A stretch of DNA of 64,000 nt, from NCBI GenBank assembly GCA_903813345.2, contig CAIIXF020000005.1, positions 30,507,375-30,571,374 of the forward strand, given 5' to 3'. Shown one piece after another: positions 12,101 to 59,844 of this stretch; position 1 is the first letter of the stretch; the number at the start of each line of letters is the position of its first letter. The notes below the pieces were generated by a model. The model ran no database searches, was not told where the DNA came from, and saw only the letters and a list, made by a program, of their open reading frames with translations. The position numbers were made by a program, and so were the translations under genes. The DNA comes from Owenia fusiformis. Its lineage: Eukaryota > Annelida > Polychaeta > Sabellida > Oweniidae.

Positions 12101-15100
12101 ACATACCTTTGATAAATACTTCGAAGTAAGTCCTCTTCTTGACTTGTACACCAGTCTTCTCCAAACCTGGCCCAGCTGCAGTGACTTTAGAGGCATCGCC
12201 AGCAGCTCCTTCCACATTTACTTGGAATGGAGATTTGGGGATTTCCTTGTTGGCAAATTTCACAATGACGCGATATTTTCCTTCCATGGTTGGTGTGTAG
12301 ACACAAGAGTATGTAAGGTTTCTGTCATTGTTGAAAACAACTTCACACTGAAATAGAACAGGAAAATATTGAAAAATAGAATAATATTTGTTATGTTTTA
12401 GAAAATTAAAACTTAGTCTCTGGTTTAGAATTTTATGACATGCTGTGTGAGTTACTAAATCTAAGAGACTTGTTTTCAGAATATATATACCAGGTCGTTC
12501 AATAAGTTCCCGGAAAAACGCTCTCATTTTGTTAGTTTGTAGTATTTTTTATTGAAATTTACACAGTATGTGTAAAATTTATTTAGAATTTATGAATAGA
12601 AATATTTTTATACAATATTTCATATTTATTAACTTATCCTTGATAACATGACGTCATAAAAGGGTATGCGGGGCACTATTTTGACGTTAAAATTTCACAA
12701 TTTTCAATTTATTCATCATATGTTCACATTTTTTGTATTTGTTTTATTTCAACTGAATAAACAGTCCTGTTGCCATGGTAACTATGTGACATCATATTAC
12801 TGCTGTACAAGATGCAAAAATTCCTTGAATTGATGACATCATACATATTTGCATGACATCACACAACTAATGCATGACATCAGTCATTAGTCAGACACCA
12901 AAATGGCTACTGTCCTCTAGGATATTCCATCAGGACAATGCTCCAAGCCATAGGTCTAACTTGGTGCAGGACACCATTTCCATCAATCTCCAAATGGAAC
13001 TGCAAGACCAGGCACCCTATTCACCTGATATGGCAGTATTAGATTTTGCTGTTTTCAACAGATTGAGGGAAGCTCTGAGGGGGATTTGCTTTGGCTCAGT
13101 TGATGATCTTAAAGCAGGTGTTAAGAATGCACTAAAGGAGAAGTTTCCAGTTGGGTTCCGTGACCAATACAAGCAATGGGTTCAGAGACAGAGGCTATGT
13201 ATTCAGCACGATGGTTCATATTTTGAGCATTTAATGTAGATGACAGTGGAGGACTATGTGAATATATAATCTTACAAGCATACAAAGACATCAAAGGGTG
13301 TTAAAGTATATCGTAAAATGTGACTAAAACGTTTAGATTTAATGATCCAAACCGTAATACTAAACAGTGCCCCGCATACCCTTTTGTGACGTCACATGAT
13401 GTTGGATAACTTAAAAACTAGTAAAACATTTTCAAATTAATTTAATACAATGATTTGAAAATAAATTGCACACATACTGTGAAAATTTCAATGAAAAATA
13501 TTATAAACTAATAAAATGAGAGCGTTTTTCCGGGAACTTATTGAACGAACTGGTAATTTTGCAAGAAATTATTGAAGTGAGACTGACTGGTATAATTTAA
13601 GAATTATCAACAAATATGTGCATGCAGTAAAACCTCTCTATCTGAGTCCGACTCCAACTAGCCAAAAATGTTCAGAATGACATACTTTCACATTTTGAGG
13701 TTTTGCAAATTGGCATTTTATTGGCACATTGAAAAATGGGATAAAAAAGCCCTCACATTTAGAGATGTTCAGTCTAGAGAGGTGTTCAGATATATATAAA
13801 GGTTTTACTGTAATAGCAAAAACAACTGTGAACAACAAATATTAAAAACATATCAATCCTTACTGTCTCTTGTTGTCCTTTAGGGTTGAGAACAGTGATC
13901 TGTACTTCTCCACGACCAGCACTGAATGTCTCCACAGTGAACCTGGCTGGTGCCCCAACACTGTTGCCACTGGGCTCAATACCTTTAGAAGTCAAAGAAA
14001 GATGGCTCTGTTATACAGTGACCAAAAAGCTTCATTTCTAACAATAGCATGCAAAAATAGACTTTATGAATTCAACTTACAAAATAATTAAATTAATTAA
14101 TTCACATTTAATGGACTTACCTGTACTTAATGTACATGTAATAAATAATGTTTGTAGAACAAAACCATGCATGATTTAATCATCAAACACACTCCAAACA
14201 TATTCAAAACTGATTGTGCTAAACAGCGTGCAAAAAGGAAAACTGACAAAAGTGCTACACTAGAGACCAATTATTGATGAATAAATACAGGGGAAAACTG
14301 ATTTATAGAAGTTACTATATTAATTAGAACAAAGACACAAACCTGGACCATAGGCCCGAACACGGTTATGGTTAGTTTTGGGTCTAAGAGGTGCACCAGA
14401 TTTGAGTTTAGCACTCGGGTAATTAGACAAATATGTCATGACGCTCATTTCGTCAACCTTTGGATTGGTCAGTTCTTCTGGACGTATCAGCTAAAAATCA
14501 TATAAACACACATCTTAGCTATGAGGGTCTAGTACTATTGTGATTTTGTGATCAAGTGGTGTTCACAAATTGCAACTCATGGGTAATGGTGGATTAGAAA
14601 AAGCAAATTTCAACTAACAAACATTATAATATATAATTGAGGGATGTCCAATAAAATGCATCCTAAGTAACGTATTGTAATGTTTGTTTGTTGAAAAGGC
14701 AGTATCTATAACTCTGATCTTCAATATCCCAAAATGAGTGGTTTTATGAAGTTTTAATAATCCCAGAAAAAGGGGTTCACTTCAAAGTCTATTGGAGTTA
14801 AATTAAAATATCTTAGAGTAATTTAGGATCAGAATTATAGATGTTAACCCTTCGAGAGAAACATAGGAGCAAAATCAGAAAGCCGTGTCTCCCTATCTAG
14901 CCTCCGTAGATTGAGGCACAAGTACCTGGACCATAAGCATGAGCTCTATTAGGGTTAGTGCGGGGTCTTAATGGTGCCCCGGGTTTCAGCTTGGCTTGAG
15001 GGTACTGCGATAAATACGTCATCATGCTCAAGTCGTCCACTTTTGGGTTGACCATCTCTTCAGGTTTAATAAGCTATAATATAACAGTGTGAGCATGTAT

Positions 15101-18100
15101 GTAGGTATGTCAACTGGTTTAAAATTAAATAATGTTTATGTACCGCTAACAAGGAATAAAATGAGGCATTAACATGCAAAATGTCACCACCTGCCATTTG
15201 ATACAGATGCTGACTGCAGAATGCTGACTGCCAAACACCAACTGCCGAACAGTGTCCACAAAAAGTTGGTGACCATAACAATATGTCACAACTTGTGGTG
15301 GTGACATAATAAGCCTGATCATGATAGATCAAATGCCGGTGAATATGGGGATTTCTTGTAACATAACTGTAACAAACACATACATACAGTAACAGTACTA
15401 TGCTCTTATTAAAAAGAAAACAAAGCAAAGCATACACATAAACAAGTGAACTGTAACATGCTTCCTTATATGGACATGACTGTCTATAAGCAAAAAATGA
15501 ATACATGAACATATGAACATTCCATAATGGTGAACAGGCAACAGATAACAGAACATAAACCCCTAAAGCCAAAACATAAATTAGTGATGCAACAAATAAG
15601 TTCCATTCAAAGATGTCACCACTGTCTCTTAAAGGTCCTACCTGGGCCATATGCTTTGACCCTGGCTATATTGGTTTTGGGTCTCAAAGGTGCCCCAGGC
15701 TTTAACTTTGCCTTGGGGAACTGGGACAGGTATGTCATCATACTGAGATCATCAACCTTTGGGTTGCACATTTCAACAGGTTTGATCAGCTAAAAATGAC
15801 ACACAAAATGTTGAAATATATATAACGTGCTTGTATATAGTATGCATAGTTATGCCCTTGGCTAAATGAGTTCAATCTCAGTCGTGCATCAAACCTCTGG
15901 GTTCCCATATTACATTCTCCCTCAAAACAAGATGGTAGGGGGGGGGGGTTAAAAGATTTGACAATGTCTAAGTTGAGAATCATTAGAATTGTTTTTAATA
16001 ATTCAAAATATACCAAGTGCATAACTTTACATAGTAATGACCTAAATGATAAAAATGAAATCTATGATTAAATTATATATCATTATCATAAATTAATCAT
16101 AATTTCATCTTTTTTATGGCACAAATCTTTGTTGTAGTATTCTGTCAAAGATTTGACTATAAAACATGCATAAACAAGATGAAAAACCTTGCTTGCTAAA
16201 ACTACTGAAATAAAAGAAAAATTATGACAAATAGTTCACTATGAAATTATTGAAGACAACGAAGATGGAATGGAAGAGCTATTCAGGACACATGTTGGGA
16301 GCTGTTTCAAGCCTTCAATAATTTCAGTGAATCTATATAACCCTATAAATAAATTAATAATATAGCTCAGCCTTCGCAAAATATAACATATGTACCTATA
16401 GGAAGCGTCACATTTATTTCACTAAAGACAAGACAGTGGAAACATTGAATATATTTGAACAATTTGACTGAGAATAAAATTCCTCATGAGACCCCCCTCT
16501 CCCCATTTTCTACAAGTCCCCAAAGAGTACATTCTCAACAATGCAGAAATTGTCTCAGTATCTGAATGAAAATTCCTAGACTCTGATACATTTAATGATT
16601 GAAATTATATGAGTTTGTTATGGCAATCACGCTATAAATCATTATGTTGAAGTATTGATGTCTGTAGACTATTTCTTGTTGTCTGACAACACTAGACTAT
16701 CTCTACTTCAAAGAGCTCTGCTGTATGTTGAAGATCTCTTAATTGTTCTTATATTCAGTTACCTTTGATTCACCTTTGTATAGAATGTCAAGGTAACTTT
16801 TTCATAATAGATCAAATAGGAAAGACATTTGAAAAAATAATATTTAAAGATGAAGCCAATATTAATACCTGAAGAAACTCCTTTAAATTACACGTATTTG
16901 ATTTTCATATGTACATTCATTTAATGACAAAATACAGTTGTTTTGTGCTTTATTTGAAAGGTTGTGTGTTATTAAAGTATACAGTGGTGGTGGTTGGGCT
17001 ATGTTTTCTGTAATCCTTATCTACAGTGTCTCTAACCTGTGGCATTTTAAATCTGAGTTATCTGAGTATCATGTCATGATTGTGTTGTTTGTTCTTTTTG
17101 TGAATTATGTGAACCAATAAAACATACATTATTACATTATTTTTGTCTGATGTCATCTTCACATATGTTTTATAAATTCATTGGATTGGGATGAGACAGT
17201 AATGATATATAAAAGATATGCATGTAAACTAAGAAGAGTGAATGGAGAATACTCGTACTTGTGTTGATTTTCCAACCCTGGAACAACATCATTGAAGAAA
17301 CAAAGAGGGCGTTATAATCAACATTCCCTGTCTACATCTTCCTTCTGCTCCACTTCTATGTATTACGTATGCTATTAACCTAAACACTGTACAAATGGTT
17401 GCGGAAAGTTCACAAGTAATTCACCAGTTGGCCAACCTGTCAGAAAAAGCCGAGTGCATATTGCCTAAAATACCTGAAGTAATATATTTATCCCCGGCTT
17501 ATCTTGCATTAGAGTTATTTGTAAGCAATCATAAAACCTCAAGTTATCTAGAGCCAACCCTACAGGAGGCTGATCACTGGTGGCGTACCTCCAGGTATTT
17601 AAAAGGAATAATGCATTATGGGTGATGATCACCCCCTTTGATGAAACATACTATGGGCCCTTTAATTTGATTGGGAGGGAAGGCTATTGAAAAAAAACTA
17701 CATTTCAGTTTCCTTCCAGGGCAAAGAACTATTTTCTCTGAATCATTCAAACAGTTCTAGAACATATTTCATGATTCATTGACCAACAACTACCCTTCTG
17801 AATCTTGATTATACAGTTGTAAATATAGATAAGAATGCTTTTAAGATTAATCAGAAAGTGTTATTTAAAGATTTTGTGTATTTTTGCCAACTTGTTACCA
17901 AAATATGAAATTCTTGGATGAAATAGGCATATTGAACTTTCCAAGACAAACAAAAACTAAATTTCGAGAGATAATAGATCGGAAATATGGAAAAGTGATA
18001 TTCTAACTGAACGATGGGACCAACTTGCATTTAATTGCAACTTCATAACCACAAAACACATAGATACACAGAACTGGTTGCCAAGAACTGGTAATTATAC

Positions 18101-21100
18101 CATTAAGTCTGGGCACTTTGACTTGAAACTTTAAAAACAAGTGTTCAACCCATGAAGATGATTAATAATAGTATCATTCTCAACTTGATTGTATGTAAAT
18201 ATGCACACAGTAAAAAGCAAATTGTAGAGACTATAGTTCTAGTCTGGCTGATGAATGGAATGTTTAAGGTCATACTATGCCTATTAAAGTCAAGTGTATG
18301 ACATGTTAAAGATACATAAGCCGCAAATGCTGGCAACTATTCAAAACATCTGAATCAAAAATGAAACAATTTAACTGTACATAAGTGGTAAACAACTCAC
18401 AGGGCTGGGCAATGGGAAGTAGGGGAACAGCACCAGGGGCATCTTAAGGTTTCAGTTGTTACTACCTCTAGACCCAGTGCAGTGGAAAGCAGCGATTGGG
18501 ACTGGTCATTTAGGCAAGGAACCATGGAACCATCTCTGGGAAAGCAAAATTACCTTTAGCATGACTGACATTCATGTTTTCAGCTTTTCTGTTTACAATC
18601 CTTTGCCTGTAAGCCTATTTCCAAGAAAGGTATCTGACCCCTGTGTTTAGCTGAAGGTTTTGTATAAGGCTTGAATTTACAGCTATTATCCTTCAACATC
18701 TTGTGTTGTTATTCTTCCAGCAAACACAAATTGGTTCTGGCCTTCAGACTTTTGCATAAACAATACTAGGGTCATGCAGCACCAAGAATGCCCTTAGTTC
18801 AATTAGACAGAGGTGTGTGAATTGACCCAACATGCACCATACAATCTAAATAGAGGTATGCCATTCGGCCCAACATGCACCCCATAATCTGGCAGCAAAT
18901 GAAACTAATACAGATCGGTGCCAAAATATTGAACTCTGGGGGACTCAATTAATTCAACAACAGATTGTGAATCAGATTTGTAGAATTTCAAAACATTGAA
19001 ACAGGACCAGGTTTAGGGCAGACCACTGCCTTATATGGCAACACCACTGATAAAACTGTCAAGTAAACTGTCTGAATACTGCTACACAAACCACACTTTC
19101 TGGTATGAAAACATGAAGGAAACCAGAGACGGCTGATCACAGGAAGCGTGAGATCAGGAGTAGGCAATTATCTGTGCACGCACAGGAACAGAAAAAGTTT
19201 TGTGGTTTGGTGATGAGTGCCACAAAATTGCAACATCTAAGATGTGGTTAGGGGATAAATGGAATGATGATCCTCTATAGAGAACAGCTGGGCTAGACAC
19301 ACTGTCAAAGTCAAACAAACCTCTACCTACTTTAATCTCATCTCCTCATAATGTCAACATGAAATTCTCAGCATTTATCTCCAAATCCTAAGTCTCAAAC
19401 AGGCCCCATGTGCCAAGGTACCATCAATGTACCATTAATGTACATCAATTTTTGATCACCACAGAGCAAGTCAGAATTCATCAAATTATGAATCCACATG
19501 ATAAACCATGCCATCAATAGGATGGGTATCAGAGTGGTCATTCAATTTTCAGATGAAAATATGCCTCCTGTGTTGAAAGGGTAGACATATTACTTGGGAG
19601 CTCAATACCTCTCTTGACAACCATTCACCAAAGGTTACAAATGATTATGGGTAACATTGGTCGCAACATCTTATAACATATTTAGCAAAAATTATGTATT
19701 ACAGATTATTACATGTATATGCATCTGTTTCAATAACCAAAATAGCCTATCCATCAGAAAAAACAAAAACAAAAACTTGATTTTTCCTCTCTAGAATATC
19801 ATGAAAAGAATAAATAGGACAATGTCCTATGATCTGTTGCCATGCCCACATGACGTGATGTCATGTCCAAATTTTGGATTGAAATCAAAATTGGATTTAT
19901 AAAATGTAGATCAACTTCTAATATATGGAAGGAAAATATTTCACTGGGTGAGATAACTGGAAGGTAGAAGGTTTCCTAATGCTGTTATATCTGTCTGCTA
20001 TTTGCTAGGAATTGGTAAATGTCAGACATGACATATAACCATAAATCAGTGATGGAAAACAAAATACAAGTGAAAATATGATTAGGCCAACCCTAACTTT
20101 CTTCACCCCTATTAACACATGTAATTCAAAATGTGAACCATGTCAAAATAATGTGTCTGTAGTAGTAGCAAGTCTTGTATCAAGTCACTGGTCCCCCCCC
20201 CCAGTCTTCTTAAACAGACCTCCTAAGTCAAATGAAAGGATAGAAGGCGTGTATGTCATGGGGAGAGGTATATTTGGGCTTGGTGCAATATTTGCCAAAT
20301 ATAAACCAGGGGCTCTTTTTTCAAAAATATTTTGAATTATGATTAGCGAAATTCAGTTTCAGACTATTACCATAGTAACATTATGAAACATTGAAATACA
20401 AGAATCGTAATCTACAATGTTTTTGAGAATCAGGCCCAGAGCATTTAACCTTTAAAACTAAATGATGAACAGTTCAACTTTTACTGACAGTTACAGAGGT
20501 AAGTTAATTAGACCAAATAAATGAAATGAATGAATCACCCAAAATTCATTTCTTCCAGATTTTGCCCTATGTGGTTTTAAGTGAGAAAACGTGTAGATTC
20601 TGTGGCGTGATATGTGGCGTGTAAATGGTGCATAGCACAACACTCTGGTAGTGCTCTCTAAATGTCAAACTACCTGAAATCTGCAGGATGATATTACAGT
20701 CAATAAATAATCATATAATTCTAGCATCTTTTGTAACCTAGACACAAACATAAATAAACATATGTCCCATTTTGGTAATATTGAGCTTCAAATACATGAA
20801 AATATTAAGAACGATATCCTGAAACACGTACTGAAAGCAACGAAAATGGATCTTTCTCACTGACTTCCTTATACCATCAGTTACAATGGTTGCTATGACA
20901 ACATGAGAGGTTGCATTTTTTGTTGCTATGCCTACCTGGGGTACATCCAGCCATTGTTCAGCAGCATCCATAGCTTCTTTAGCATTATTCTTGGCCTTCT
21001 TGGGATCCCAGTCATCCCAATCAGGACACAAACCTGAAACATTGGCACAAACATTAAGATTTTGAAATATAACATCAATAAACATGTACGTGTTTATCTA

Positions 21101-24100
21101 GTTACAGTAAAACCTGTCTTAGTGAACACCTATCTCTAGTGAACACCTGTCTCTTATAGACACCCTTCCTTCACACATGCTCTATTGACTTCTGTATAAA
21201 TTACCCTCTCTGTAGTGAACACTGAACACTTATGAACACTAACTTTTCTCTCAGCAAAAAGTGTTCAATATAAAAAGGTTTTACTGTATTTTAACAGAGG
21301 TTTAAAATGACATATAGAACAGTTTTCACAATCTTGATGTATATGAGCTTCTATTTATAACTTATTATTGACAGGTAACAAATAAACATAAGTAGGGATC
21401 ACTGATTGATTTAGCTATTTTGGTCAGGTTACATCATAAGGATTTACTAACTACAGGAAAAAAACTGTATCGTTCCAGTTTTATCTCATTTTTTATTTTT
21501 GCTGGGCAACAATTGGCCCTAGGGCTGGTGCTCATGTCTCACCCTGCATAAAGGGCAATACTACTAACTCAGAAAATATACAAACACGAAACCCAACAAA
21601 CAATATTAGCAATCCAAGTTATCAGCTGATCTTTCTTTAGAATATAAATCAAATTTTCTATGGGTTGAAAAACTGGTTTGGTTCTCCAAAGTCAACTTAT
21701 TCAAATCTATGACTAGACTCTTATATAGTCTCATAGCAGGCAAATATTCTCATTATGTTAATTACAATAAAGAAAACCAAAATACAACTTGAAACAATTA
21801 GGCGTGGCTCCAACTCATTTATCAGTTGAACCCTGGGATTAAAAACCCCCTTTGCCACTTATTTTCCATGTAAGCTGTCTAAATCCAGCAACTTAAGTAT
21901 GACGAGAAGGGGAAGGTAAGTCAATCTTCCAATTGCTTTAAGAACAGATGCAAAAACATTGTTGGTTCAGAGGTAGAGATGCACAATTAAAAAAGCTTCA
22001 GACTAACTGAGGTTGCGGTGACATAAAGATAACTAATTATACCTGAATCTTCCCCCAGGACGTCATAAAGGTTTCTAATCTAAGGCACTATGGCCTTTTG
22101 AAAAGTTCATCATTACCATGAATGCCAGGAAAGACATAATTTAAGTTGATGCAAAAATGGACTGATGTTACATCCAAATAGTGTATGTTATTATTGGACA
22201 CCATCGCGAACCCTGCAGATTATGATCCTTGAAATAGTTATTAGACTATGAGCTTTAACAATTACTGTAATTTAGCCTAACATTTTCACAAAATTAAAAA
22301 ATTTCAGGAAAATTGAACATAAGAAAATAACTGTAAATTACAGTTTTCTGAGAAGAATACATACACAGGATTAAAATATGTTACAAGATTGAAGGGAAAT
22401 TGAAGTTCTTAATGGTTTAATGGGGTTCTCCTAATACCTCATTAAAACAAGACTTCAATGAGATTTCAAAGTCATTTAGGAAAATACAAAAATACTTCAA
22501 TTTCATGGAAGTATTTCACACTCTATGTCACAAACCAAAATCTTACGAGTAAATTATTTTGGGTGTGTCATGACTCACCTGGTGCAATTGCATCAACGAG
22601 GGCACCGATAGCTTTGCCATCATTCCAATCTGTAGTAAAGTTCTTAACTGGTCTATCAGGAATCTTTTGGTTAATCCATTGAAGTAGTTTCTGTTTGGGA
22701 GTTTGTTTATCTTTGGGTTCGGTTGGTTCTTCCTCACCCTCCCACATTGGCATAGAGATGGAATAGTGAAGAATGAGGGTCCAGATCAGACCCAGGATAA
22801 GCTTCAGTTTGTGGTCTACAATATCTGTACTGTCTGAAAGGGAATACATACAGTTTTAACCAGAACAACGGCAACGCCAAAGCGTAGCGAATCCCATCGA
22901 ACAGAAATAGCTGGCATTTTTACAAACGAAGCGCAAATATCATAAAACAACAAGCCAGAAAGGCCACCATTTTCAAAATGGTTGCTCACTAGCCAAGTTG
23001 TCATCAGAAGAAATAATATGCTTTTAAGTAGCCACCTCTTGTAAAATCGCACACGTACTTGTAAAATAACACACATAAAAATGGTGGCCATGTTTCAAAA
23101 TGGCCGACTACTCTCTAAAGTTTTATTAGACAATGTGCCATGCTTAAAGTATTCACATATCAAATATGAACAAAATCGCTCCACTACTTTTCCAGTTATA
23201 GTTAAATACGTTAAAATGGCGGCCATTTTTCAAAATTGTTTTCAAAATGGCCGCCTTCTACCAAAAGTGTCATAGGACAGTGTGCCGTGCTTATAGTATT
23301 CCCATACCAAATATGAACAAAATCGCTCCGCTACTTTTCGAGTTATAGTAAAATATGTTAAAATGGCGGCCATTTTTCAAATTTTTTTTCAAAATGGCCG
23401 CCTTCTACCAAAAGTGTCATAGGACAGTGTGCCATGCTTATAGTATTCACATACCAAATATGAACAAAATCGCTCCACTACTTTTTCAGTTATAGTAAAA
23501 TACGTTAAAATGGTGGCCATTTTGAAAAATGGCCGCCTTCTACCAAAAGTGTCTTTAGACAGTGTGCAATGCTTATAGTATTCACATACCAAATATGAAC
23601 AAAATCGCTCCACTACTTTTTGAGTTACAGCAAAAATCGTAAAATGACGAGTAAAGGCCGCCATTTTTCAAGATGGCTGCCATGAGCTTCTTTAATATCT
23701 ACATTTGTAGCATTATTAATGTCCTTTATAATTTTTTTACATTTAAAACATATTGCTGTTACAGTTTTACATATTGCACCTAAATTACTGTAAAATCGTC
23801 ACTAAAATGGCCGCCATTTTGAAATGAGTGGCCATTTTGAAAATCGGCTTTCGAGCAGAACTTCTACCCCAATAGGGTATATGTGTACAAAATATGAACA
23901 AAATCAGGCCAACGGTATTTGAGTTATTGCCCGGACGGACGGACAGACGGACGGACGGACGGACGGACGGACGTACGTACGTACGGACGGACGGACGGAC
24001 GGACGGAGGCGTTCCCTATATCCCTCCGAACTTCGTTCGATGGGATTACAGTATTATTCATAATTATACTATTTGTATTAATCTGGTTTTTCTATTGACG

Positions 24101-42100: not shown

Positions 42101-43241
42101 CATGGTGTATGCCAGATTCTAAGCAAGGATGTGTCCAAGCTTCTATCAATGGAGAAATATCTCCCACTGTCATCCACATTCATCAAACATATGGAATTTT
42201 CGATTCTTTCTATCCTTTATCTGATTTTTAACAGACAGTATGATTTCAGATTAATTTACCCCTATATGTATGATATGACTATAATCATACTGTGAGTCAG
42301 TTCATGTTCATATAATCTTGGCCCAAGCCTACCCCCCCCCCCCTCCCACCCTACCTACCCCCGGACTGTCTCTCAGCACAGTTTATTTAATCAGAAATAG
42401 TGGGGAGACATAGCCTTGATGCACAGACCAGAGACCATGAATTCAATCACTCAGAGTGGTCAGCGGGGATTTTCTGATCTAAATGGGGTAGTGGGGTAAA
42501 TCGAGGGAGTAAATGTACAAGTAATCCCAGACCCTAAAATACAAATGTAAACCACTACTATTTGTACTTTCTGCAGTGCTTATAGTCCTTATGGTTCTGG
42601 ATGACATCGGTGTATATAACAAGGACTCAGATTAGACCTTGACAATGACAGTCTAAAATACACATTCTTCCCACAAGATCACATTCTATACTGGTGGTAT
42701 ATTCTGTGGGCAAGATAATTGATTAAGCATAAAATCACTCCCCACAATTCAGAAACAGGTGGTTGGTTTGCATGGCAGGTCAATTCAGGTCAACCTGTTC
42801 TCAAGACCCCTGTGTCAAATATGGCCTTGTTTAGGCTATTTCAAATGGGATTTGGACAATAAAACCAGGTCTATCTTGTTAGGAATTGATTAAACTTAAT
42901 TTTTACATACCTATGTTGACAATTCTGATCCCCTCATCTTCTTCAAGGAACCTCAAAGCCATGGTGACATTTTCAAGTTTTTGGGTTCTGAAGTTTGGAC
43001 GTTTGTTGATGTGCTTGAATTTTTTTCCCGAAAGGACCTCGACCAGGGCGAGTAAACGCAACCCATCGCTCAGATCTGTCTCCAAGTCCGCCAGGTACTT
43101 GTTGACAGTCTTCAAATGCTCGTTAGCCCATCTTGAAAAGGTGTTTTTCTGGATTAATTTCCACTGAGCATCGTCAGCTAATTCTCTCTCTGTCGCCGGC
43201 ATCTCTTCTTCTTCGTCCTCGTTTTCGAAATCCTCATACAT
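42..43241 (-). CDS. filamin (actin cross-linking protein), N-terminal two thirds, multi-exon gene
   Basis: Filamins are large cytoplasmic F-actin cross-linkers and membrane-cytoskeleton scaffolds: an actin-binding domain of two calponin-homology domains, followed by many immunoglobulin-like repeats. Here the twenty constitutive exons run from 43241 down to 2206 and sum to 4569 nt (1523 codons) with every splice phase consistent. Residues about 15-228 plus one of three alternative exons form CH1-CH2. From about residue 278, 13 filamin repeats follow, most marked by a GPG motif near the start and an SPF or SPY motif near the end. Compared with human filamin A (recalled, not searched) I can match repeats 1-6, 8, 9 and 11-15; equivalents of 7 and 10 are absent inside continuous exons. 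The 3' end (later repeats and dimerisation repeat) lies beyond position 1. The family assignment is secure; the paralogue question does not arise, as invertebrates usually carry an undivided filamin. Confidence 0.96.
1409..1794. mobile_element. foldback/MITE-like element with 22-bp perfect inverted ends
   Basis: The left end (1409-1430, gacgattctcggtttggaga...) is the exact reverse complement of 1773-1794 over 22 bases. Inside, a segment of about 180 bp occurs twice in the same direction; both copies contain 'aaatattacccaaattaaa' followed by 'gaagcagggataa'. There is no coding capacity. It lies in the filamin intron between the hinge-position exon and exon 20. Confidence 0.65.
1901..1914. repeat. 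poly(C) tract, 14 C
   Basis: A run of 14 C in a filamin intron. Similar runs of 10-13 C or G occur at 11464-11475, 15938-15948, 20193-20202, 35007-35017, 42332-42343, 51005-51017 and 63961-63972. Confidence 0.95.
2206..2450 (-). CDS. filamin exon 20 (Ig-like repeat matching human repeat 15)
   Basis: Acceptor ttatttcatag, donor gtgagc; 245 bp, phase 1 in and phase 0 out. It encodes most of one filamin repeat, including [17 protein letters not shown] and [14 protein letters not shown]. The terminal SPF motif is replaced by NGEY, as expected for a repeat that leads into a hinge rather than into another repeat. Confidence 0.93.
2746..3092 (-). CDS. filamin exon 19 (repeat matching human repeat 14)
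   Basis: 347 bp, phase 2 in (AG|T gives Ser of SPF) and phase 1 out; acceptor ttctctccag, donor gtaagt. It starts with SPFKTNV closing the previous repeat, then carries [18 protein letters not shown] to [13 protein letters not shown], a whole Ig-like repeat, and ends with [10 protein letters not shown] at the start of the next. Confidence 0.94.
3288..3411 (-). CDS. filamin exon 18 (second half of repeat matching human 13)
   Basis: 124 bp, acceptor in 'aattttag', donor gtgaga, phase 1 in and 2 out. It encodes [20 protein letters not shown] and NNQAIPG, the C-terminal strands of the repeat begun in exon 17. The usual DNGDGT turn is missing in this repeat and replaced by a less regular loop. 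Confidence 0.9.
3686..3856 (-). CDS. filamin exon 17 (end of one repeat, first half of repeat matching human 13)
   Basis: 171 bp, phase 1 in and out, donor gtaagt. It begins with SPYMVHV, closing the preceding repeat, then [20 protein letters not shown] and [14 protein letters not shown]. The next exon completes this domain. Confidence 0.92.
4049..4372 (-). CDS. filamin exon 16 (end of repeat matching human 11, most of human 12)
   Basis: 324 bp, phase 1 in and out; acceptor ggtatttttag, donor gtaatc. It encodes [12 protein letters not shown], then [36 protein letters not shown] and [14 protein letters not shown], ending at EHIPG. The GGLGL..EGPSEAK signature is typical of the even-type filamin repeats. 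Confidence 0.95.
4898..5071 (-). CDS. filamin exon 15 (central part of repeat matching human 11)
   Basis: 174 bp, phase 1 in and out, acceptor tgctaatttag, donor gtaaag. It encodes [20 protein letters not shown], then [20 protein letters not shown] and VSYTPFEQG. The VF-EATTEF-like start is the mark by which I match it to human repeat 11. Confidence 0.92.
6307..6903 (-). CDS. filamin exon 14 (repeats matching human 8 and 9, start of 11)
   Basis: This is the largest exon seen: 597 bp, phase 1 in and out, donor gtaatc. It carries the body of one repeat ([18 protein letters not shown] to [11 protein letters not shown]), a short linker rich in [10 protein letters not shown], a complete repeat ([20 protein letters not shown] to [11 protein letters not shown]) and the first strand of the next ([16 protein letters not shown]). 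The last part resembles the start of human repeat 11, not 10, so a repeat-10 equivalent is missing within this exon. Confidence 0.94.
7321..7473 (-). CDS. filamin exon 13 (end of repeat 6, start of repeat matching human 8)
   Basis: 153 bp, phase 1 in and out, acceptor ctcttttaag, donor gtaagt. It encodes [26 protein letters not shown] closing repeat 6, then [13 protein letters not shown]. The continuation in exon 14 resembles human repeat 8, so an equivalent of repeat 7 is absent here. Confidence 0.92.
7844..8036 (-). CDS. filamin exon 12 (first half of repeat 6)
   Basis: 193 bp, phase 0 in, phase 1 out. Two donors are close: gtgggt after 7844 and gtacta after 7840. Only the first joins exon 13 in frame, giving DNGDGTF across the junction, so I chose it. 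It encodes [20 protein letters not shown] and [19 protein letters not shown]. Confidence 0.9.
8271..8528 (-). CDS. filamin exon 11 (repeat 5)
   Basis: 258 bp, 86 codons, phase 0 in and out; donor gtatgt. It encodes nearly all of repeat 5: [40 protein letters not shown] and [12 protein letters not shown]. The PKR..KHT and NSPFR stretches are strongly like vertebrate repeat 5. Confidence 0.95.
8668..8861 (-). CDS. filamin exon 10 (second half of repeat 4, start of repeat 5)
   Basis: 194 bp, phase 1 in, phase 0 out, donor gtttgt. It encodes [40 protein letters not shown] and PNSPYMAEI, then the linker leading to YDPTK, the first residues of repeat 5. Confidence 0.95.
8976..9233 (-). CDS. filamin exon 9 (second half of repeat 3, first half of repeat 4)
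   Basis: 258 bp, phase 1 in and out, donor gtatgt. It encodes [32 protein letters not shown], then [20 protein letters not shown] and [10 protein letters not shown]. Confidence 0.95.
9501..9638 (-). CDS. filamin exon 8 (first half of repeat 3)
   Basis: 138 bp, phase 1 in and out, donor gtatgt. It encodes [20 protein letters not shown] and [20 protein letters not shown]. The RGIQPKG motif takes the place of the usual GPGL, as in vertebrate repeat 3. Confidence 0.95.
10580..10588 (-). CDS. candidate 9-nt filamin microexon between repeats 2 and 3
   Basis: On the minus strand a strong acceptor (tgtttttatag) and a consensus donor (gtaagt) lie only 9 nt apart. The 9 nt keep the reading frame with either neighbour: from exon 7 they read A-E-G in place of the direct join, from the 78-bp cassette T-E-G. 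The neighbouring exons 7 and 8 also join in frame without it, so it would be optional. Such splice-site pairing may occur by chance. Confidence 0.35.
10912..10989 (-). CDS. candidate 78-bp cassette exon of filamin (disordered linker)
   Basis: A 78-bp segment lies between an acceptor (gttgtattcag) and a near-consensus donor (gtgagt). It is phase 1 in and out, so it can be included or skipped without changing the frame. It reads open as 26 residues rich in Ala, Pro, Glu and Gly, such as [20 protein letters not shown], unlike any filamin repeat strand. It would insert a flexible linker exactly between repeats 2 and 3. The GC content is well above that of the surrounding intron, which supports coding use. 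Confidence 0.6.
11464..11475. repeat. poly(C) tract, 12 C
   Basis: A run of 12 C followed by tcccc, in the filamin intron just downstream of exon 7. Confidence 0.9.
11631..11831 (-). CDS. filamin exon 7 (most of repeat 2)
   Basis: 201 bp, phase 1 in and out, donor gtgagg. It encodes [40 protein letters not shown] and [12 protein letters not shown], the bulk and end of repeat 2. Confidence 0.95.
12107..12347 (-). CDS. filamin exon 6 (second half of repeat 1, first third of repeat 2)
   Basis: 241 bp, phase 0 in, phase 1 out, acceptor ctatttcag, donor gtatgt. It encodes [30 protein letters not shown], then [20 protein letters not shown] and TYFEVFIKG. Confidence 0.95.
12490..13553 (+). mobile_element. 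mariner-like element, deleted copy with 188-bp terminal inverted repeats
   Basis: The ends are inverted copies (12490-12677 against 13366-13553), both beginning ccag(g/t)tcgttcaataag and reaching the inner motif gggtatgcggggcact. TA dinucleotides flank both sides (12488-12489, 13554-13555), as expected for Tc1/mariner insertion. Between them lies the C-terminal part of a transposase on the plus strand. The element sits in the filamin intron between exons 5 and 6, antisense to the gene. At 1064 bp and without the transposase N-terminus it should not be able to move by itself. Confidence 0.88.
12874..13239 (+). pseudogene. mariner transposase remnant, C-terminal catalytic part
   Basis: The 121-residue frame contains [10 protein letters not shown], the mariner motif around the second catalytic Asp, and [10 protein letters not shown], the motif around the third Asp. 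It ends with [10 protein letters not shown], the usual mariner C-terminus. The helix-turn-helix DNA-binding region and the first catalytic Asp are missing. The first about 17 codons are not recognisable transposase, so the ATG at 12874 is probably not a real start. The remaining frame is intact, which suggests a rather recent internal deletion. Confidence 0.8.
13624..13812. mobile_element. MITE-like repeat with cagtaaaacct ends (family B)
   Basis: It begins cagtaaaacctctcta and ends with the inverted form aaaggttttactgta. The same kind of ends enclose 21103-21288, 30813-30987, 36984-37244 and 46966-47164. It is noncoding and lies in the filamin intron between exons 5 and 6, next to the mariner element. 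Confidence 0.6.
13864..13982 (-). CDS. filamin exon 5 (first half of repeat 1)
   Basis: 119 bp, phase 1 in, phase 0 out, donor gtaagg. It encodes [20 protein letters not shown] and [18 protein letters not shown]. It follows the GPG that ends each of the three alternative exons, completing GPGIEPSGN, the start of repeat 1. Confidence 0.95.
14343..14490 (-). CDS. filamin exon 4a, alternative end of CH2 domain and linker to repeat 1
   Basis: 148 bp, phase 0 in, phase 1 out; acceptor tttttag, donor gtttgt. It encodes [20 protein letters not shown], then the linker [20 protein letters not shown]. This is the last helix of the second calponin-homology domain and the segment leading to Ig repeat 1. 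Two close paralogues, 4b and 4c, lie just upstream in transcription order, with the same length and phase. By eye 4a differs from 4b at about 13 of 50 residues. Because 148 is not a multiple of three, using two copies or none breaks the frame. Confidence 0.92.
14926..15073 (-). CDS. filamin exon 4b, alternative end of CH2 domain and linker
   Basis: 148 bp, phase 0 in, phase 1 out; acceptor gttatattatag, donor gtactt. It encodes [20 protein letters not shown], then [20 protein letters not shown]. It is closest to 4c (about 9 differences in 50 residues). The frame and both splice sites are intact, so it is not a decayed duplicate. Confidence 0.92.
15164..15310. mobile_element. MITE-like repeat with tgtcaccac ends (family A)
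   Basis: It runs from ggcattaacatgcaaaatgt through caccacctgccatttg to acttgtggtggtgacata, where the last part inverts the tgtcaccac of the first. Related copies are at 34305-34437, 51238-51345, 52831-52948, 54171-54301 and 55086-55216. All contain a middle part with 'gaacacc..cc' and 'aaaagttgg(a/t)ga'. It lies between alternative exons 4b and 4c. Confidence 0.75.
15642..15789 (-). CDS. filamin exon 4c, alternative end of CH2 domain and linker
   Basis: 148 bp, phase 0 in, phase 1 out; acceptor gtcatttttag, donor gtagga. It encodes [20 protein letters not shown], then [20 protein letters not shown]. It is the first of the three alternatives in transcription order. It has a Cys and a Val in place of conserved Glu/Val positions of the other two copies, which could change the surface of the final CH2 helix. 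Confidence 0.92.
15790..20935 (-). other. filamin intron 3 (5.1 kb)
   Basis: Noncoding sequence between exon 3 and alternative exon 4c. It holds poly(G) at 15938-15948 and poly(C) at 20193-20202. I see no conserved protein segment or RNA gene. An open frame at 17395-17625 has no recognisable family. Confidence 0.7.
20936..21033 (-). CDS. filamin exon 3 (middle of CH2 domain)
   Basis: 98 bp, phase 1 in, phase 0 out, acceptor tgtttcag, donor gtaggc. It encodes [20 protein letters not shown] and [10 protein letters not shown], the CH2 helices around the conserved P-D-W motif. It ends exactly where each of the three alternative exons begins. Confidence 0.95.
21103..21288. mobile_element. MITE-like repeat with cagtaaaacct ends (family B)
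   Basis: It starts tacagtaaaacctgtcttag and ends aaaaaggttttactgta, an imperfect inverted pair, and holds several 'gtgaacacc' motifs. It lies in filamin intron 2 (21034-22578), which otherwise shows nothing recognisable. Confidence 0.65.
22579..22833 (-). CDS. filamin exon 2 (end of CH1, start of CH2)
   Basis: 255 bp, phase 1 in and out, acceptor ttccctttcag, donor gtgagt. It encodes [20 protein letters not shown], the highly conserved last helix of CH1, an acidic linker ([12 protein letters not shown]), then [20 protein letters not shown] and [18 protein letters not shown] of CH2. Confidence 0.96.
23096..23665. repeat. tandem array, four units of about 147 bp rich in atggcggcc motifs
   Basis: Units start at about 23096, 23243, 23390 and 23524 (the last about 13 bp shorter). 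Each carries aaaatggc(c/g)gcc, 'gtgtcataggacagtgtgcc', 'accaaatatgaacaaaatcg' and 'ctccactacttt'. The gggccatttt/aaaatggcc parts are mutually inverted, so each unit can fold. No coding frame is shared between the units. Confidence 0.85.
23932..24007. repeat. GGAC/GGACA microsatellite
   Basis: About 76 bp of cggacggacggac with a central acgtacgtacgtac stretch. It is preceded by caaaatatgaacaaaatca and 'gagttattgcc' and followed by ccctatatccctccgaactt. The same flanks, more decayed, occur at 60700-60925, so it is the tail of an interspersed repeat. Confidence 0.9.
29520..29642. mobile_element. solo end of the mariner-like element
   Basis: About 123 bp closely match the right end of the element at 12490-13553, from acgttttcaaattaattt to gaacgacctgg, and are followed by TA. 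The remainder of the element is absent on the inner side. Confidence 0.85.
30813..30987. mobile_element. MITE-like repeat with cagtaaaa ends (family B)
   Basis: Begins tacagtaaaatctgtctcag, contains repeated gtgaacacc, and ends near acaggtttcactttat. The right end is more decayed than in the other copies. Confidence 0.5.
34305..34437. mobile_element. MITE-like repeat with tgtcaccac ends (family A)
   Basis: Starts agacattaacatgtacaatg, has caccacctgccatttgttac and aagttggagactataacaat, and ends ttgtggtggtgtcatta. It is in filamin intron 1. Confidence 0.75.
35007..35017. repeat. poly(C) tract, 11 C
   Basis: A run of 11 C in filamin intron 1, followed by tccctaggcc. Confidence 0.9.
35570..35760. 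promoter_or_regulatory. CpG-rich patch inside filamin intron 1
   Basis: The stretch includes tgcgcgcgcacgcataaatg, 'agcgggaagtggcgtttcg' and 'caggcgcgaccc' in an otherwise CpG-poor, AT-rich intron. On the plus strand an ATG in good context (gaaaatgagcc) is followed within about 25 nt by a donor-like tggtaagag. This could mark an internal or antisense promoter. No core promoter element is clear. Confidence 0.3.
36984..37244. mobile_element. MITE-like repeat with gtaaaacct-type ends (family B), internally duplicated
   Basis: It begins agtgaaacctg and ends caggttttactgta. The inside carries two to three copies of a segment with 'aagaggcttaatg' and 'aaatgaacctctagaagt', showing internal tandem duplication. 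Confidence 0.55.
42332..42343. repeat. poly(C) tract, 12 C
   Basis: A run of 12 C followed by tcccaccctacctacccc, in filamin intron 1 near exon 1. Confidence 0.9.
42911..43241 (-). CDS. filamin exon 1 (start codon and CH1 domain)
   Basis: 331 coding bp ending in phase 1 at donor gtatgt. I chose the ATG at 43241-43239, the first in the frame, which gives an acidic N-terminus ([14 protein letters not shown]) before the CH1 domain. A second ATG 13 codons later is possible. CH1 is clear from [20 protein letters not shown], then [20 protein letters not shown] and [12 protein letters not shown] tag just before the ATG (cccccctag) could be a 3' splice site, so a noncoding exon further upstream is possible. 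Confidence 0.95.
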
Positions 43242-45016: not shown

Positions 45017-45185
45017 AACATGTATTGTAATGTATAACATGTATTGTAATGTACAACATGTATTCTAATGTACGACAAGTATTGTAATGTACACCATGTA
45101 TTGTAATGTACAACATGTATTGTAATGTACAACATGTATTGTAATGTACAACATGTATTGTAATGTACAGCATATATTGCAATGA
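45017..45185. repeat. 19-bp minisatellite
   Basis: About nine copies of aacatgtattgtaatgtac with point changes. Any reading frame through it is a by-product of the repeat. Confidence 0.9.
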
Positions 45186-47164: not shown

Positions 47165-48360
47165 ACGTATATACATAGCCGGGTCCTCATAGAACAGTGA
47201 ATATAATTCAAAATGGAACACCGGGTACAATGATCGTCCATATTAGATTTTAATATGCTTAGCATATATGTATTTGAACAAAGGTGGCATGCTCTATGAT
47301 GTACATTGGGCTCCGATTCATGCGATTGGGCTTAATAAAATAATGACAGGATTTCGTCACATTTTAAATTTGATTTTCAGCGGTGCTCTTTTTGCTTTTA
47401 TTTAACTACGTCAAACTGAAATACGATGACAATGGGATAGTCTGGCAGTACGTATATACAAAAAATAACATCAACGGGTGTCCATAATTCACTGATGAAA
47501 ATAAATTAAGTATTTTATCAGGTTGCCAAAATGAGTATAAACTCATTGTTAAAGCTTGTAATACTTGGAACTTGTTTGCCTGTGTAAAAGGGTAGGAGGT
47601 CCTATCAAATTATGGTCCAACTCTCCATTGATTTATATGGTGACCTAAATACAACTCTTTCCCGTATTATCTTATACACAATCAGGGCCAGTAAGGGCCG
47701 TTTAGAAAGGAGACCATAATTCCCAGGGGACCATAATTTCTTTCACACCGGTTTGTATTTCTATTTATGAGGACATACCAAGTCCTACATCATAGATGTC
47801 TAAATATGATCTTTGGCCAATTTGAACTCTAAGTTTTGTATTCCAGTCTACCAACGTACCCACTGGGATCATAACTAACACATATGCCTCAATACATCCA
47901 TGCCCTATTATCAAAATAAATATAACCTTTCACCAATATATGAATATAGAATACATACTTTTTCATAAACTCTGAATAAATGAATTGAATAACGATTTAT
48001 TTTTAGCTTTTAAAAAGGAACCCACCATATTTTTACTTCAAATGCTCATATTTTGATCTATCAAATAACTTAGAATTTAGCTTAGTGTTACCTAAATTGA
48101 CCTAAATAATTGCCTGTAATGATCTTTAAAGACTGGATTTAAACTCAAAAATATTTGGATGAATTCAACCTATGTCCAAATACAAGAAAGAGATAATTTG
48201 ACCCTGAACTTTGACAATTGTTTACAAGGATGGCCTTGAATAACATAGTACTAATTATTGAGTTTTAACAAATGTATGACCTACTTTTTCCAACTTCAAA
48301 CATTGAGGTCACATTTCAAAATGAAAAAGATTGTTATGTTTTTAAGTTGATTTTACAGAG

Positions 48361-48756
48361 AAACAAACAAACCAGCAATTGAACAGACAAGCCAACAATG
48401 CGATATACAAGCAAGCAATGCAACATACAAGCCAACAATGCAACATACAACCAAACAATGCAACATGCAAGCAAACAATTCAACAGACAAGCAAACAATG
48501 CAACATACAAACAACCAATGCAACATACAAGCCAACAATGTAACATATATGAAAACAATGCAACATACAAGCCATGAATGCAACATACAATCAATCAATG
48601 CAACATACAAGCCAACAATGCAACATACAATCAAACAATGCAACATACAAGCCAATAATGCAACATACAAGTAAACAATAGAACACACAAGCAAATAATG
48701 CAACATACAAGCAAGCAATTATACAACATACAAACAAACAATGCAGCAGACAAACG
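48361..48756. repeat. 20-bp minisatellite
   Basis: About 19-20 copies of a 20-bp unit close to caacatacaagccaacaatg, with substitutions but almost constant length. Cys- and Leu-rich open frames on the minus strand and Thr/Asn-rich ones on the plus strand are by-products. Confidence 0.93.
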
Positions 48757-51004
48757 AGAAAGAAAGCAAGGAAGAACACTAAAATCACATACTTAAATCT
48801 CCGTCTCGTCTTACTCATAAATAAAAGTCAAAAAAAGTTGATGAACTTTATTATCATGTTTATTAATATCAAATAAGAAAATAATTACCTTTTGTTAACT
48901 TTCTCTGGTCCTCATTAAATGAAATACTGCATACATGTAATACATCAGAATTTCAACTTTTCTATTTCTTCATATTAACTTATCCCTTGATGAAGTAGAT
49001 GTTATTTAACTCAATGAAAATGGTCATGTAAAGTTCAGACAGGCCAATAAAACAACTCTTCAAGAGAACTACATAGAGATAAAAATCATGAACATAATAA
49101 TTGAATCAACATTCAATGAACATACAATTACCCGAATTACTAGATAATATCCCTCAATTGCTAAGTTTAGTACTACCAATATCTACAATATGCTACTTAA
49201 TACAATCACCCTTGATAACATGACAAAAGATCAAATACTACTTCCTATGTATTATCTAAAAATGACTTACCTGTTACCATATCCAAATATGATCTTAAGC
49301 GATTCTCTAATTTTCTATGTGCTTCTACCAGTTTCTCTTTACAACTCAATTGTCCCGAAAAGTAAAAGGTTTAAGCATTTGTACATGTTATTCACAAGTC
49401 CCTGGTCAACACATGTCAGCATATATCACCTTAATACAATTCGATAAATACATTAGAATATCCCTTTTGTAGAGTTTCTATAGATCTTTTGATAGGGGGT
49501 AAAAAATGATAGATTTTTGTCAACAGCAATGTAAAAAGGCTGTTCAACGGAGCCTAATACCCGTATGAGGTACAATGACCTTATCCATCCCCTCTCTAAA
49601 ACTTTTTATCTTGAGCGCTTGATGTAAAAAGGTTGTTTTTTCTCTAAAAGGAATTCTATACGTTATTATTATTGTGCGAACATGCAGTTGAAAGGTTTTA
49701 TACTAAATGAAACATTAACAAAGGATATCTTCGAAAAAATTAGTTGAAAGGTTACTAGCTAACCCGAGACTTATTGTGATGCAAAATAATGAGCCGCCTA
49801 CATGTATAAGCATAATAGACTGCCATGTATAACGGATATGCATAAACTGCACTTTGCAATTTAGGCACAAAACAATATGTGATATGTATATATTTGTTAA
49901 CTTGAAAATATGATTAAAGTACTGATATTATGCAAATGATGATAATCCATTAAGCATAAAATTATCAAAGCACATTTTAATTAATGTTCAATTGATCAAG
50001 TAATCCCTGAGACAAAACTGAACTCACCTTGCTCTATCACAAAACAACTTTATCCACAAAAAGTGACCTTTCATAAATCCAATCCTGTACACTGTACATG
50101 AGAGCTTCAATATAACCTGATATATAACCATAAAAAACTCAGTAATAAGCCAAATAAATGACTAAAATGATATTACCTGGACTAATTTAATCCAGTCTGC
50201 TCTGTATTTGTCCAACCAAGCAATACTTAACCAGTGATCGTTAGACGCATTTATGGGCAACAGTCACATAGTTTGGAGATGAGCAGGAGATAAACAAACG
50301 TATTGAGATCTATTAGGTTCAGTTTTTACTTTGATAAAGAACTTATGTGAAGAGACGGCTTGATCCCCAAACCTATTTAATTGTTGAAATTAAATTCATT
50401 ATTCCAACGCACTTGTTTTTTATCAAATCTTAATCTGCTCTAGATAATGATCCAAAATTGATCAAAATATATTAGAAATATCTTACGTAACATGATTTTG
50501 ATGATAAGTTTTTTTGGCATTAAAAAATAAAGTTAGATATTGCTAATTTTACACATGGGTCTCATCAACAATCATACTTAAGAAGAGTACTACACCAACC
50601 CTCTTAACATTTTATACTCACTTTATTATGCACATATCTAAAAGACATTTCAAGGCATATAATTTAACAAACTGTAGTATGTACTATCATGAAATCGATA
50701 AAGACCTGAGGGTTAATGAATGCAAGATTTACAAGGGCTACTTCATTCTGTCCTAATTTGACCTTAATGATAAAATTGAATCTTATAGGAACACCACCCA
50801 AGTTAATTATTTTCAATAATAAGTTTGAATTTGTATGTATAAATGGCAAATAAAAGTGTTTGAACAGCGCACTAAGTATTTGGTCTAATTCAGTTTCTAT
50901 ACTTATTTAAGTATCTTATGTAAATCTTTACCCAACAAATGAAGCAAGTGGATTAATATTTGGACCAAGTGTCATCCTACATGCTAGCCAGCGAACCCTG
51001 CGAA

Positions 51005-58203: not shown

Positions 58204-59300
58204 CTGAAATGTAAAATTGAGGTTCATTGCTTTGAGTGAGATCCTGAAGTGGCTTGCCACTAACTGAAATGTAAAATAGAGGTTCATTGCTTTGTTTGAG
58301 ATCCTGTGGTGACTTACCACTAACCGAAATATAAAACAGAGGTTCATTGCTTTGTTTGAGATCCTGCAGTGGCTTACCACTAACTGAAATGTAAAATAGA
58401 GGTTCACATTTTAGTGTGAGATCCTGTAGTGGCTTACCCCTAGCTGAAATGTAAAATGGAGGTTCATTGCTTTGTTTGAGATCCTGTGGTGACTTACCAC
58501 TAACTGAAATATAAAACAGAGGTTCATTGCTTTGTTTGAGATCCTGCAGTGGCTTACCACTAACTGAAATGTAAAATAGAGGTTCACATTTTAGTGTGAG
58601 ATCCTGTAGTGGCTTACCACTAACTGAAATATAAAACAGAGGTTCACATTTTAGTGTGAGATCTTGCAGTGGCTTACCCCTAGCTGAAATGTAAAATGAA
58701 GGTTCATTGCTTTGTTTGAGATCCTGCAGTGGCTTACCACTAACTGAAATGTAAAATAGAGGTTCATTGCTTTGTTTGAGATCCTGCAGTGCCTTACCAC
58801 TTACTGAAATGTAAAATTGAGGTTCACTTTTTAGTGTGAGATCCTGCAGTGGCTTACCACTTACTGAAATATAAAACAGAGGTTCACATTTTAGTGTGAG
58901 ATCCTGCAGTGCCTTACCACTAACTGAAATGTAAAATGGAGGTTCATTGCTTTGTTTGAGATCCTGCAGTGGCTTACCACTAACTGAAATGTAAAATAGA
59001 GGTTCATTGCTTTGTTTGAGATCCTGCAGTGCCTTACCACTTACTGAAATGTAAAATTGAGGTTCACTTTTTAGTGTGAGATCCTGCAGTGGCTTACCAC
59101 TAACTGAAATGTAAAATGGAGGTTCATTGCTTTGAGTGTGATCCTACAGTGGCTTACTATTATCTAAAATGAAAAATGAAGGTTCATTGGTTTGAGTGAG
59201 ATCCTGCAGTGGCTTACCACTAGCTGAAATGTACAATGTAAGTTCATTGGTTTGTGTGAGATCCTGAAGTGACTTACCCCTAACTGGAATGTAAAATGAA
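58170..59300 (-). repeat. 60-bp tandem array, about 19 units, open as a 20-residue repeat
   Basis: The unit is exactly 60 bp throughout and on the minus strand reads close to [20 protein letters not shown]. The frame is free of stops from 59143 down into the exon at 57993-58203, about 15-16 units, and the first stop (TAG at 59146-59144) is in a decayed distal unit. Most units also contain an acceptor-like ttttacatttcag followed 6 nt later by a donor-like gtggtaag. Thus the array could be a coding repeat or an intronic amplification of an exon border. Confidence 0.9.
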
Positions 59301-59844
59301 TCCCATGTTATTGCCAAGATGTGCCATGTATATGGTAAATGTGCTCTAAGTGTGCTAATACAACTGCATGGTACATGTTTGAAAAATGATGTCCTATGCT
59401 AGTAAATTATGGTTAAAACAAATACAACTGAACAACCTTATACGAAATAGTATTAGTTTCAATTGTAAATATCAATTATTACAATTCAGTAAATTTTATT
59501 AACAAACATGTGAGCTAAAAAAAAGTCGTGACTCCTGTGTAATGTTCAAGTTACTATCTGGACAGGGACATTCAGTGTGTCAACATTATAGGGACATTTA
59601 TGATGTATGTGATCTTTTATTCATGAATGTAGATTGTAAAAAGACAAACTAATGATTACACTTCACTTGGTTGTGTGGTATATGAAAAGTAAGTATGTTA
59701 TAAAATAATTCAACCAATAACTCAACCAATTCAACATTATTTCATATAATAAAAAGTTTATGGGACATTTGACATTTACACAACACCCAGATCAAACTAA
59801 TTTGTCATTCAGATTATACATGTATTTATACTAATAAAATAACG
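59301..59844. other. spacer between the 60-bp array and the SRCR gene
   Basis: About 540 bp, AT-rich. No coding segment or repeat is visible. The promoter of the SRCR gene must lie here unless there is an upstream noncoding exon; I see no clear core element. Confidence 0.6.

Follow-up and report, generated by a model that had tools for sequence, protein, structure and literature searches.

In human ACTN4, exons 8 and 8′ are equally long alternatives whose exchange makes the changes N249G, A251L and S264C, near the FSGS mutations K255E and T259I (PMC4539665; PMC7052930). They belong to a broader phenomenon, tandem duplicated exon substitution, in which adjacent homologous exons are used in a mutually exclusive manner; a comparison of human with Drosophila and C. 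elegans describes such events as mostly ancient and as having arisen repeatedly in parallel, finds that Z-disc and muscle contraction terms are over-represented among gene families in which human and fly both have events, and names the actinin family among the tandem exon swaps of vertebrates, arthropods and nematodes (PMC9741552). We describe an array of three candidate exons of this kind in a filamin gene of Owenia fusiformis. The gene is on the minus strand of a 64,000-nucleotide stretch of contig CAIIXF020000005.1 (C5:30507375-30571374), referred to as the window; positions are those of the window unless a contig is named. An annelid source also accords with the assembly itself, in which erythrocruorin-linker domains are matched three times on C6 (best E 5.0e-7), the telomere repeats are TTAGGG and six of the long contigs measure 32-42 Mb; a mollusc haemocyanin family gave no match there, and neither did a control.

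We propose, with a probability that we would put at roughly 0.7, that these exons, here called A, B and C, arose by tandem duplication, are used in a mutually exclusive way and vary the latch between CH1 and CH2 by which actin affinity is controlled. Each filamin mRNA would take exactly one of the three, other combinations being expected to shift the frame and to be lost through early stops. The choice would exchange the last part of CH2 (from the equivalent of FLNA residue 241) together with the linker to the first Ig repeat. Since the exchanged segment packs against CH1 and helps to keep the actin-binding domain closed, the copies would most likely give filamins that differ in opening and in actin binding, and the selection of one exon or another by cell type or stage would change how readily CH2 releases CH1.

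The Exon Array in the Filamin Gene

The gene encodes a tandem CH actin-binding domain followed, on the same strand, by filamin Ig repeats. Its Pfam CH matches lie at 42909-43151 and 22556-22702, and Pfam filamin-repeat matches on C5 range over 30493779-30519724. The parts of the gene that concern us are these, in the order of transcription:

42909..43151 (C5:30550283-30550525), minus strand: CH1-coding match, the upstream part of the actin-binding domain (Pfam CH, profile 3-84, E 2.1e-11)
22571..22855, minus strand: open frame with the exon for the CH1-CH2 linker and the first half of CH2 (CH match 22556-22702; exon borders within the frame not fixed)
20936..21033, minus strand: exon preceding the array; its protein ends ...EQWLDVPQ and the exon ends in phase 0
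15642..15789, minus strand: alternative exon A, 148 nucleotides, 49 residues plus (G)
14926..15073, minus strand: alternative exon B, 148 nucleotides, 49 residues plus (G)
14343..14490, minus strand: alternative exon C, 148 nucleotides, 49 residues plus (G)
13864..13982, minus strand: exon following the array, the start of Ig repeat 1, (G)IEPSGNSVG..., with donor ACA/GTAAGG
12107..12347, minus strand: the following exon by our reading (remainder of Ig1 and beginning of Ig2), its 3′ border placed by eye

An earlier note, made from these letters alone, had described three 148-bp exons of identical phase with intact splice sites and open frames, and its coordinates proved correct to the single base. 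For each exon entry is in phase 0 and exit in phase 1, the length leaving a remainder of 1 on division by three, and all three are bordered by AG and GT. Their acceptors end in ..TTTTTAG, ..TATTATAG and ..ATTTTTAG, and their donors read CAG/GTAGGA, CAG/GTACTT and CAG/GTTTGT. When the eight possible joins are made in silico, the frame stays open into Ig1 only when A, B or C is included singly. In the joined piece, 83 residues precede the stop for A+B and A+B+C, and 93 precede it for A+C and B+C; skipping all three shifts the frame, which then runs into a stop in what we take to be the second downstream exon, the one that starts at 12347. As the other joins all run into stops, the inclusion of one of the three is the sole productive choice as computed from the sequence, which is the frame logic that the note had claimed.

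Divergence and Selection

The three exons are adjacent homologues of equal length and phase with intact borders, and each is constrained at the level of protein. Identical residues number 40 of 49 between A and B, 35 of 49 between A and C, and 36 of 49 between B and C, with third codon positions matching at 17, 20 and 21 of 49, respectively; third positions that match at so few sites indicate that synonymous sites are near saturation. We placed the observed number of changes at random in 2000 neutral simulations per pair, and for each of the three pairs not one of the 2000 reached the observed identity, a stop codon having arisen in 1568, 1585 and 1617 of them. All three copies are under purifying selection. 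The copies are old, and selection has kept every one of them; their divergence leads us to reject duplication by assembly error or between haplotypes.

A genome-wide protein search with copy B (E of at most 10), which is insensitive to distant relatives, matched exactly three places, namely A, B and C themselves; the CH2 end of a second filamin gene (piece L005) was not picked up. Pfam run on the 49-residue exons alone gave one match for A, at E 0.29, and none for B or C. A tandem-pair scan over 63.3 kb of the filamin gene, admitting pairs 250-6000 bp apart at 50% identity or more and sorted by eye, returned other pairs that resemble satellite or simple-sequence repeats, or else two distinct Ig repeats at 50-64% identity. 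One filamin intron holds, at about 23100-23690, a tandem repeat whose period is close to 147 bp, and a repeat related to it occurs in a beta-spectrin region at C8:25251242-25251762. Tandem repeats of short or medium period also lie upstream of the CH1 exon, at 45030-45184, 48355-48780 and 58174-59304.

The Segment Encoded by the Alternative Exons

The segment is homologous to the CH2-linker-Ig1 region of human FLNB (4b7l, E 3.7e-32) and to FLNA 242-278 (2wfn), and from these matches the exon spans about FLNA 241-290; the gene is indeed a filamin, and the segment the end of CH2 with the linker to Ig1, as the note had recognized. Each copy agrees with FLNB at 32 of 49 residues, and A, B and C agree with FLNA at 28, 27 and 27 of 37. 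In a short alignment, the CH2 ends of filamin and beta-spectrin pair without gaps to the end of helix G. With beta-III-spectrin numbering anchored on T271, Y272 and H278 as in PMC10453832, the filamin exon starts at the L253 position and includes those of D255, T271, Y272 and H278. This is a segment in which gain-of-function changes in actin binding are associated with disease (PMC13001351; PMC10453832; PMC3143143). The five beta-III-spectrin residues just named are placed at or close to the interface of CH1 and CH2, and nine changes of spinocerebellar ataxia type 5 (SCA5), like L253P, are reported to increase actin binding (PMC10453832); L253P is described as opening CH1-CH2 (PMC5676748), and FLNA E254K and ACTN4 K255E are given as high-affinity variants in which CH2 is opened (PMC13001351).

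Among A, B and C, 16 of the 50 exon-encoded residues vary. In FLNA numbering, ten are in CH2 (243, 245, 247, 248, 254, 255, 257, 263, 264 and 266), and the remaining six belong to the linker (271, 278, 281, 282, 284 and 285), the boundary between the two being of our own placing. At the positions of most concern the copies A/B/C read K/K/R at 243 (the D255 position), D/D/E at 254, L/L/M at 255 and K/Q/S at 266 (the H278 position). FLNA 255 is taken to be the position of actinin-4 K255, and the FLNA change E254K is itself a disease change. The earlier proposal that splicing tunes actin affinity thus keeps its standing as something we infer: the exon covers FLNA E254, actinin-4 K255 and several SCA5 positions, and 254, 255, 266 and 243 are among the residues that vary.

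Tandem Exons in alpha-Actinin and beta-Spectrin

A finding of more weight comes from beyond the window: tandem exons recur at this place across filamin, alpha-actinin and beta-spectrin. A query with the alpha-actinin CH2 end matched eight places in the genome, including two in tandem in the actinin gene on contig C8 (E 1.1e-8 and 1.5e-7) and two in beta-spectrin on the same contig (E 0.016 and 0.12). The pairs are as follows:

C8:10924253 and 10923542 downwards (L001 2754-2669, 2043-1958), minus strand: alpha-actinin CH2-end pair, 86 nucleotides each
C8:25234829 and 25235233 (L002 1030-1142, 1434-1546), plus strand: beta-spectrin CH2-end pair, 113 nucleotides each
C8:10928350-10928272 and 10927162-10927084 (L018): alpha-actinin mid-CH2 pair, 79 nucleotides, 23 of 26 residues identical, third positions matching at 19 of 26
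C8:10913592-10913434 and 10913035-10912877 (L017): alpha-actinin EF-hand pair, 159 nucleotides, 36 of 53 residues identical, third positions matching at 9 of 53

Both CH2-end pairs have AG and GT borders, enter in phase 1 and leave in phase 0, and have lengths with a remainder of 2 on division by three, so that, by arithmetic, an mRNA with both copies or with neither would lose the frame there as well. Within pairs, 22 of 28 residues are identical in actinin and 23 of 37 in beta-spectrin, and none of 2000 neutral simulations was as similar. The actinin copies are 79% alike, as against 44-65% to spectrins. The beta-spectrin copies, 63% alike, are no closer to one another than the first of them is to beta-heavy spectrin (63%; the second, 58%), and the pair may therefore be very old. 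We know of no report of tandem CH2-end exons in a spectrin. The mid-CH2 pair of actinin, its third positions being conserved, is perhaps younger or gene-converted; a tandem exon event in the EF-hand region is known from ACTN1 and ACTN4 (PMC9741552).

Common descent of the filamin duplication with that of either actinin or spectrin was considered and rejected because borders, phase and length all differ: the filamin exon, of 148 nucleotides, begins in phase 0, some five residues ahead of the phase 1 start of the actinin (86 nucleotides) and beta-spectrin (113 nucleotides) exons. What the duplicated exons of the three genes share is the CH2 part only, without the filamin linker. The actinin and beta-spectrin scans covered 40 kb each, which may not span the whole genes; for beta-spectrin, no exon-like pair other than that of the CH2 end was recognized in the 40 kb, among satellite and dispersed repeats. 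The beta-spectrin region also holds a direct repeat at C8:25252686-25254500 (L015), spaced by 1338 bp, the copies of which translate almost identically and are probably recent.

Ten CH-domain genes with a CH2-type end were read, and in three of them (filamin, actinin and beta-spectrin) this end is present in tandem copies. The other seven have one copy in the stretches read, which were 2.6-5 kb each and 30 kb for the second filamin. These are beta-heavy spectrin (L003), the second filamin with three CH domains (L004-L005), and spectraplakin-like (L007), MICAL-like single-CH (L008), nesprin-like (L009), smoothelin-like single-CH (L010) and dystrophin-like (L011) genes, names that we presume from sequence motifs. 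The second filamin, which is jitterbug-like, extends over C4:19082553-19237954 (part of it in L004-L006), and its piece L006 contains a simple tandem repeat of considerable length, which reads LMIYKHTVLQLIHHQ.

Weighing the Explanations

Several observations weigh against a set of exons that adjusts the latch. No copy is clearly closer than the others to the human filamins, and the substitutions are mild. Position 254 is acidic in all three copies, and there is no variation where beta-III-spectrin has L253, T271 and Y272, so that several positions known to raise affinity are not toggled. Six of the 16 variable positions fall in the presumed linker, outside CH2. Pairing between introns, judged by duplex energies in ten pairs of five intron pieces, was no stronger than in shuffles (5-33 of 40 shuffles equalled or exceeded the real pair), in a blunt test that used whole introns and represented the 5.1-kb first intron by 600 nucleotides from each end. 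An excess of the Rbfox-type motif TGCATG around the array is marginal: counting the exons, 13983-16300 contains four sense sites where the scanning windows have a mean of 0.82, four being reached in 10 of 617 windows in sense and 14 of 617 in antisense (Markov model P 0.024, uncorrected). The recurrence does not come from an unbiased set of genes, the CH genes having been found by CH2-end queries and not at random. Finally, what was read of the second filamin, with its three CH domains, shows a single CH2 end and a single CH3 end, the latter taken from a list of open frames of at least 50 codons, which a shorter copy would escape.

Pairing between docking and selector RNA sequences enforces the choice in some known mutually exclusive exons. 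Weak donors find no support as a cause of exclusion in filamin, all three donors and the upstream constitutive donor matching the U1 consensus at 7 of 9 positions and the donor of the downstream exon at 6. Among intron pairing, donor strength and TGCATG sites, then, we found no mechanism of exclusion in the sequence beyond the frame itself. TGCATG also stands 26 nucleotides upstream of the first copy of the actinin pair and 35 nucleotides upstream of that of the beta-spectrin pair, which was noticed post hoc and is not counted as evidence; the single-copy exon of beta-heavy spectrin likewise has one about 130 nucleotides upstream.

The variable linker positions bear on a different account of the array, in which the exons are mutually exclusive and the target is the linker, so that splicing would alter the angle or flexibility between the actin-binding domain and Ig1, or a partner or phosphorylation site. 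The exon does encode the linker, and the differences there include the marked I/P/H and K/H/R; the duplicated actinin and beta-spectrin exons, however, have the CH2 part in common with filamin and contain no filamin linker, and we regard the linker as an unlikely target. The mildness of the substitutions, with three copies equidistant from human filamin B, would also suit exons that are functionally near-equivalent, their duplication serving mainly to give cell types separate control of splicing or expression. Against this, different residues have been kept while third positions became near random, and three gene families have tandem exons at this segment; near-equivalence strikes us as decidedly improbable. 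We see very little likelihood in an on/off switch, in which double inclusion or skipping would insert a stop and lower filamin through nonsense-mediated decay: all five joins with several exons or none do contain a stop, but poison exons need not preserve protein, and identity is far above neutral in every pair. It is just as hard to credit that one or two copies are unused relics or an assembly duplication, since the splice sites and frames are intact, purifying selection acts on the copies, and they have diverged much further than copies made by assembly or by haplotypes would.

We therefore return to exons that vary the latch. The copies differ at and around it while leaving its best-known contacts unbroken, a pattern that speaks for graded tuning and disfavors an extreme open form like that of the disease mutants. 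Recurrence in two other actin crosslinkers of the same genome makes tuning of affinity more credible and more readily testable. One could go further and suppose that filamin (three copies), alpha-actinin (two CH2-end and two mid-CH2 copies) and beta-spectrin (two copies) separately gained latch exons and that a shared cell-type splicing program sets actin-binding strength across the crosslinkers at once; we offer this extension tentatively and think it rather unlikely. Three selectable versions in one gene, each kept by selection, would show that animals vary a disease-linked surface in normal life, and biophysical work would have in copies A, B and C a set of natural variants. That three crosslinker families of one genome share the feature would provide a testable rule on where evolution places adjustable parts in actin crosslinkers.

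Comparison with Known Systems

Other filamins are known to be spliced in other ways. C. elegans fln-1 and fln-2 and Drosophila cheerio each give several isoforms by alternative splicing and internal starts (PMC3143143; PMC5521747); as these sources present them, the isoforms involve truncated forms, spliced Ig repeats and small exons, none described as exchangeable CH2-end exons. A splicing switch of FLNB in human breast cancer is said to change its function, in a paper that names QKI and RBFOX1 (PMC6103745). In the open-access literature, at the level of titles and the beginnings of abstracts, we found no filamin for which interchangeable exons at the CH2 end are reported, nor any open-access paper on mutually exclusive exons with spectrin and calponin homology. 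The FLNB switch reportedly concerns the rod hinge, not the actin-binding domain.

The filamin array belongs to a known class, that of mutually exclusive tandem exons; the membership of a filamin in that class is new. Like ACTN4 exon 8/8′, it supplies alternatives for one and the same CH2 segment in a tandem-CH actin crosslinker, and the ACTN4 pair, in a related protein, is its direct precedent. Unlike that pair, it lies in a different gene, has three copies of 148 nucleotides, and runs into the filamin linker. The main text of the tandem exon comparison makes no mention of filamin, spectrin or calponin, and it describes parallels between orthologues across animals (PMC9741552), whereas those described here are between related families within one genome, at one structural segment.

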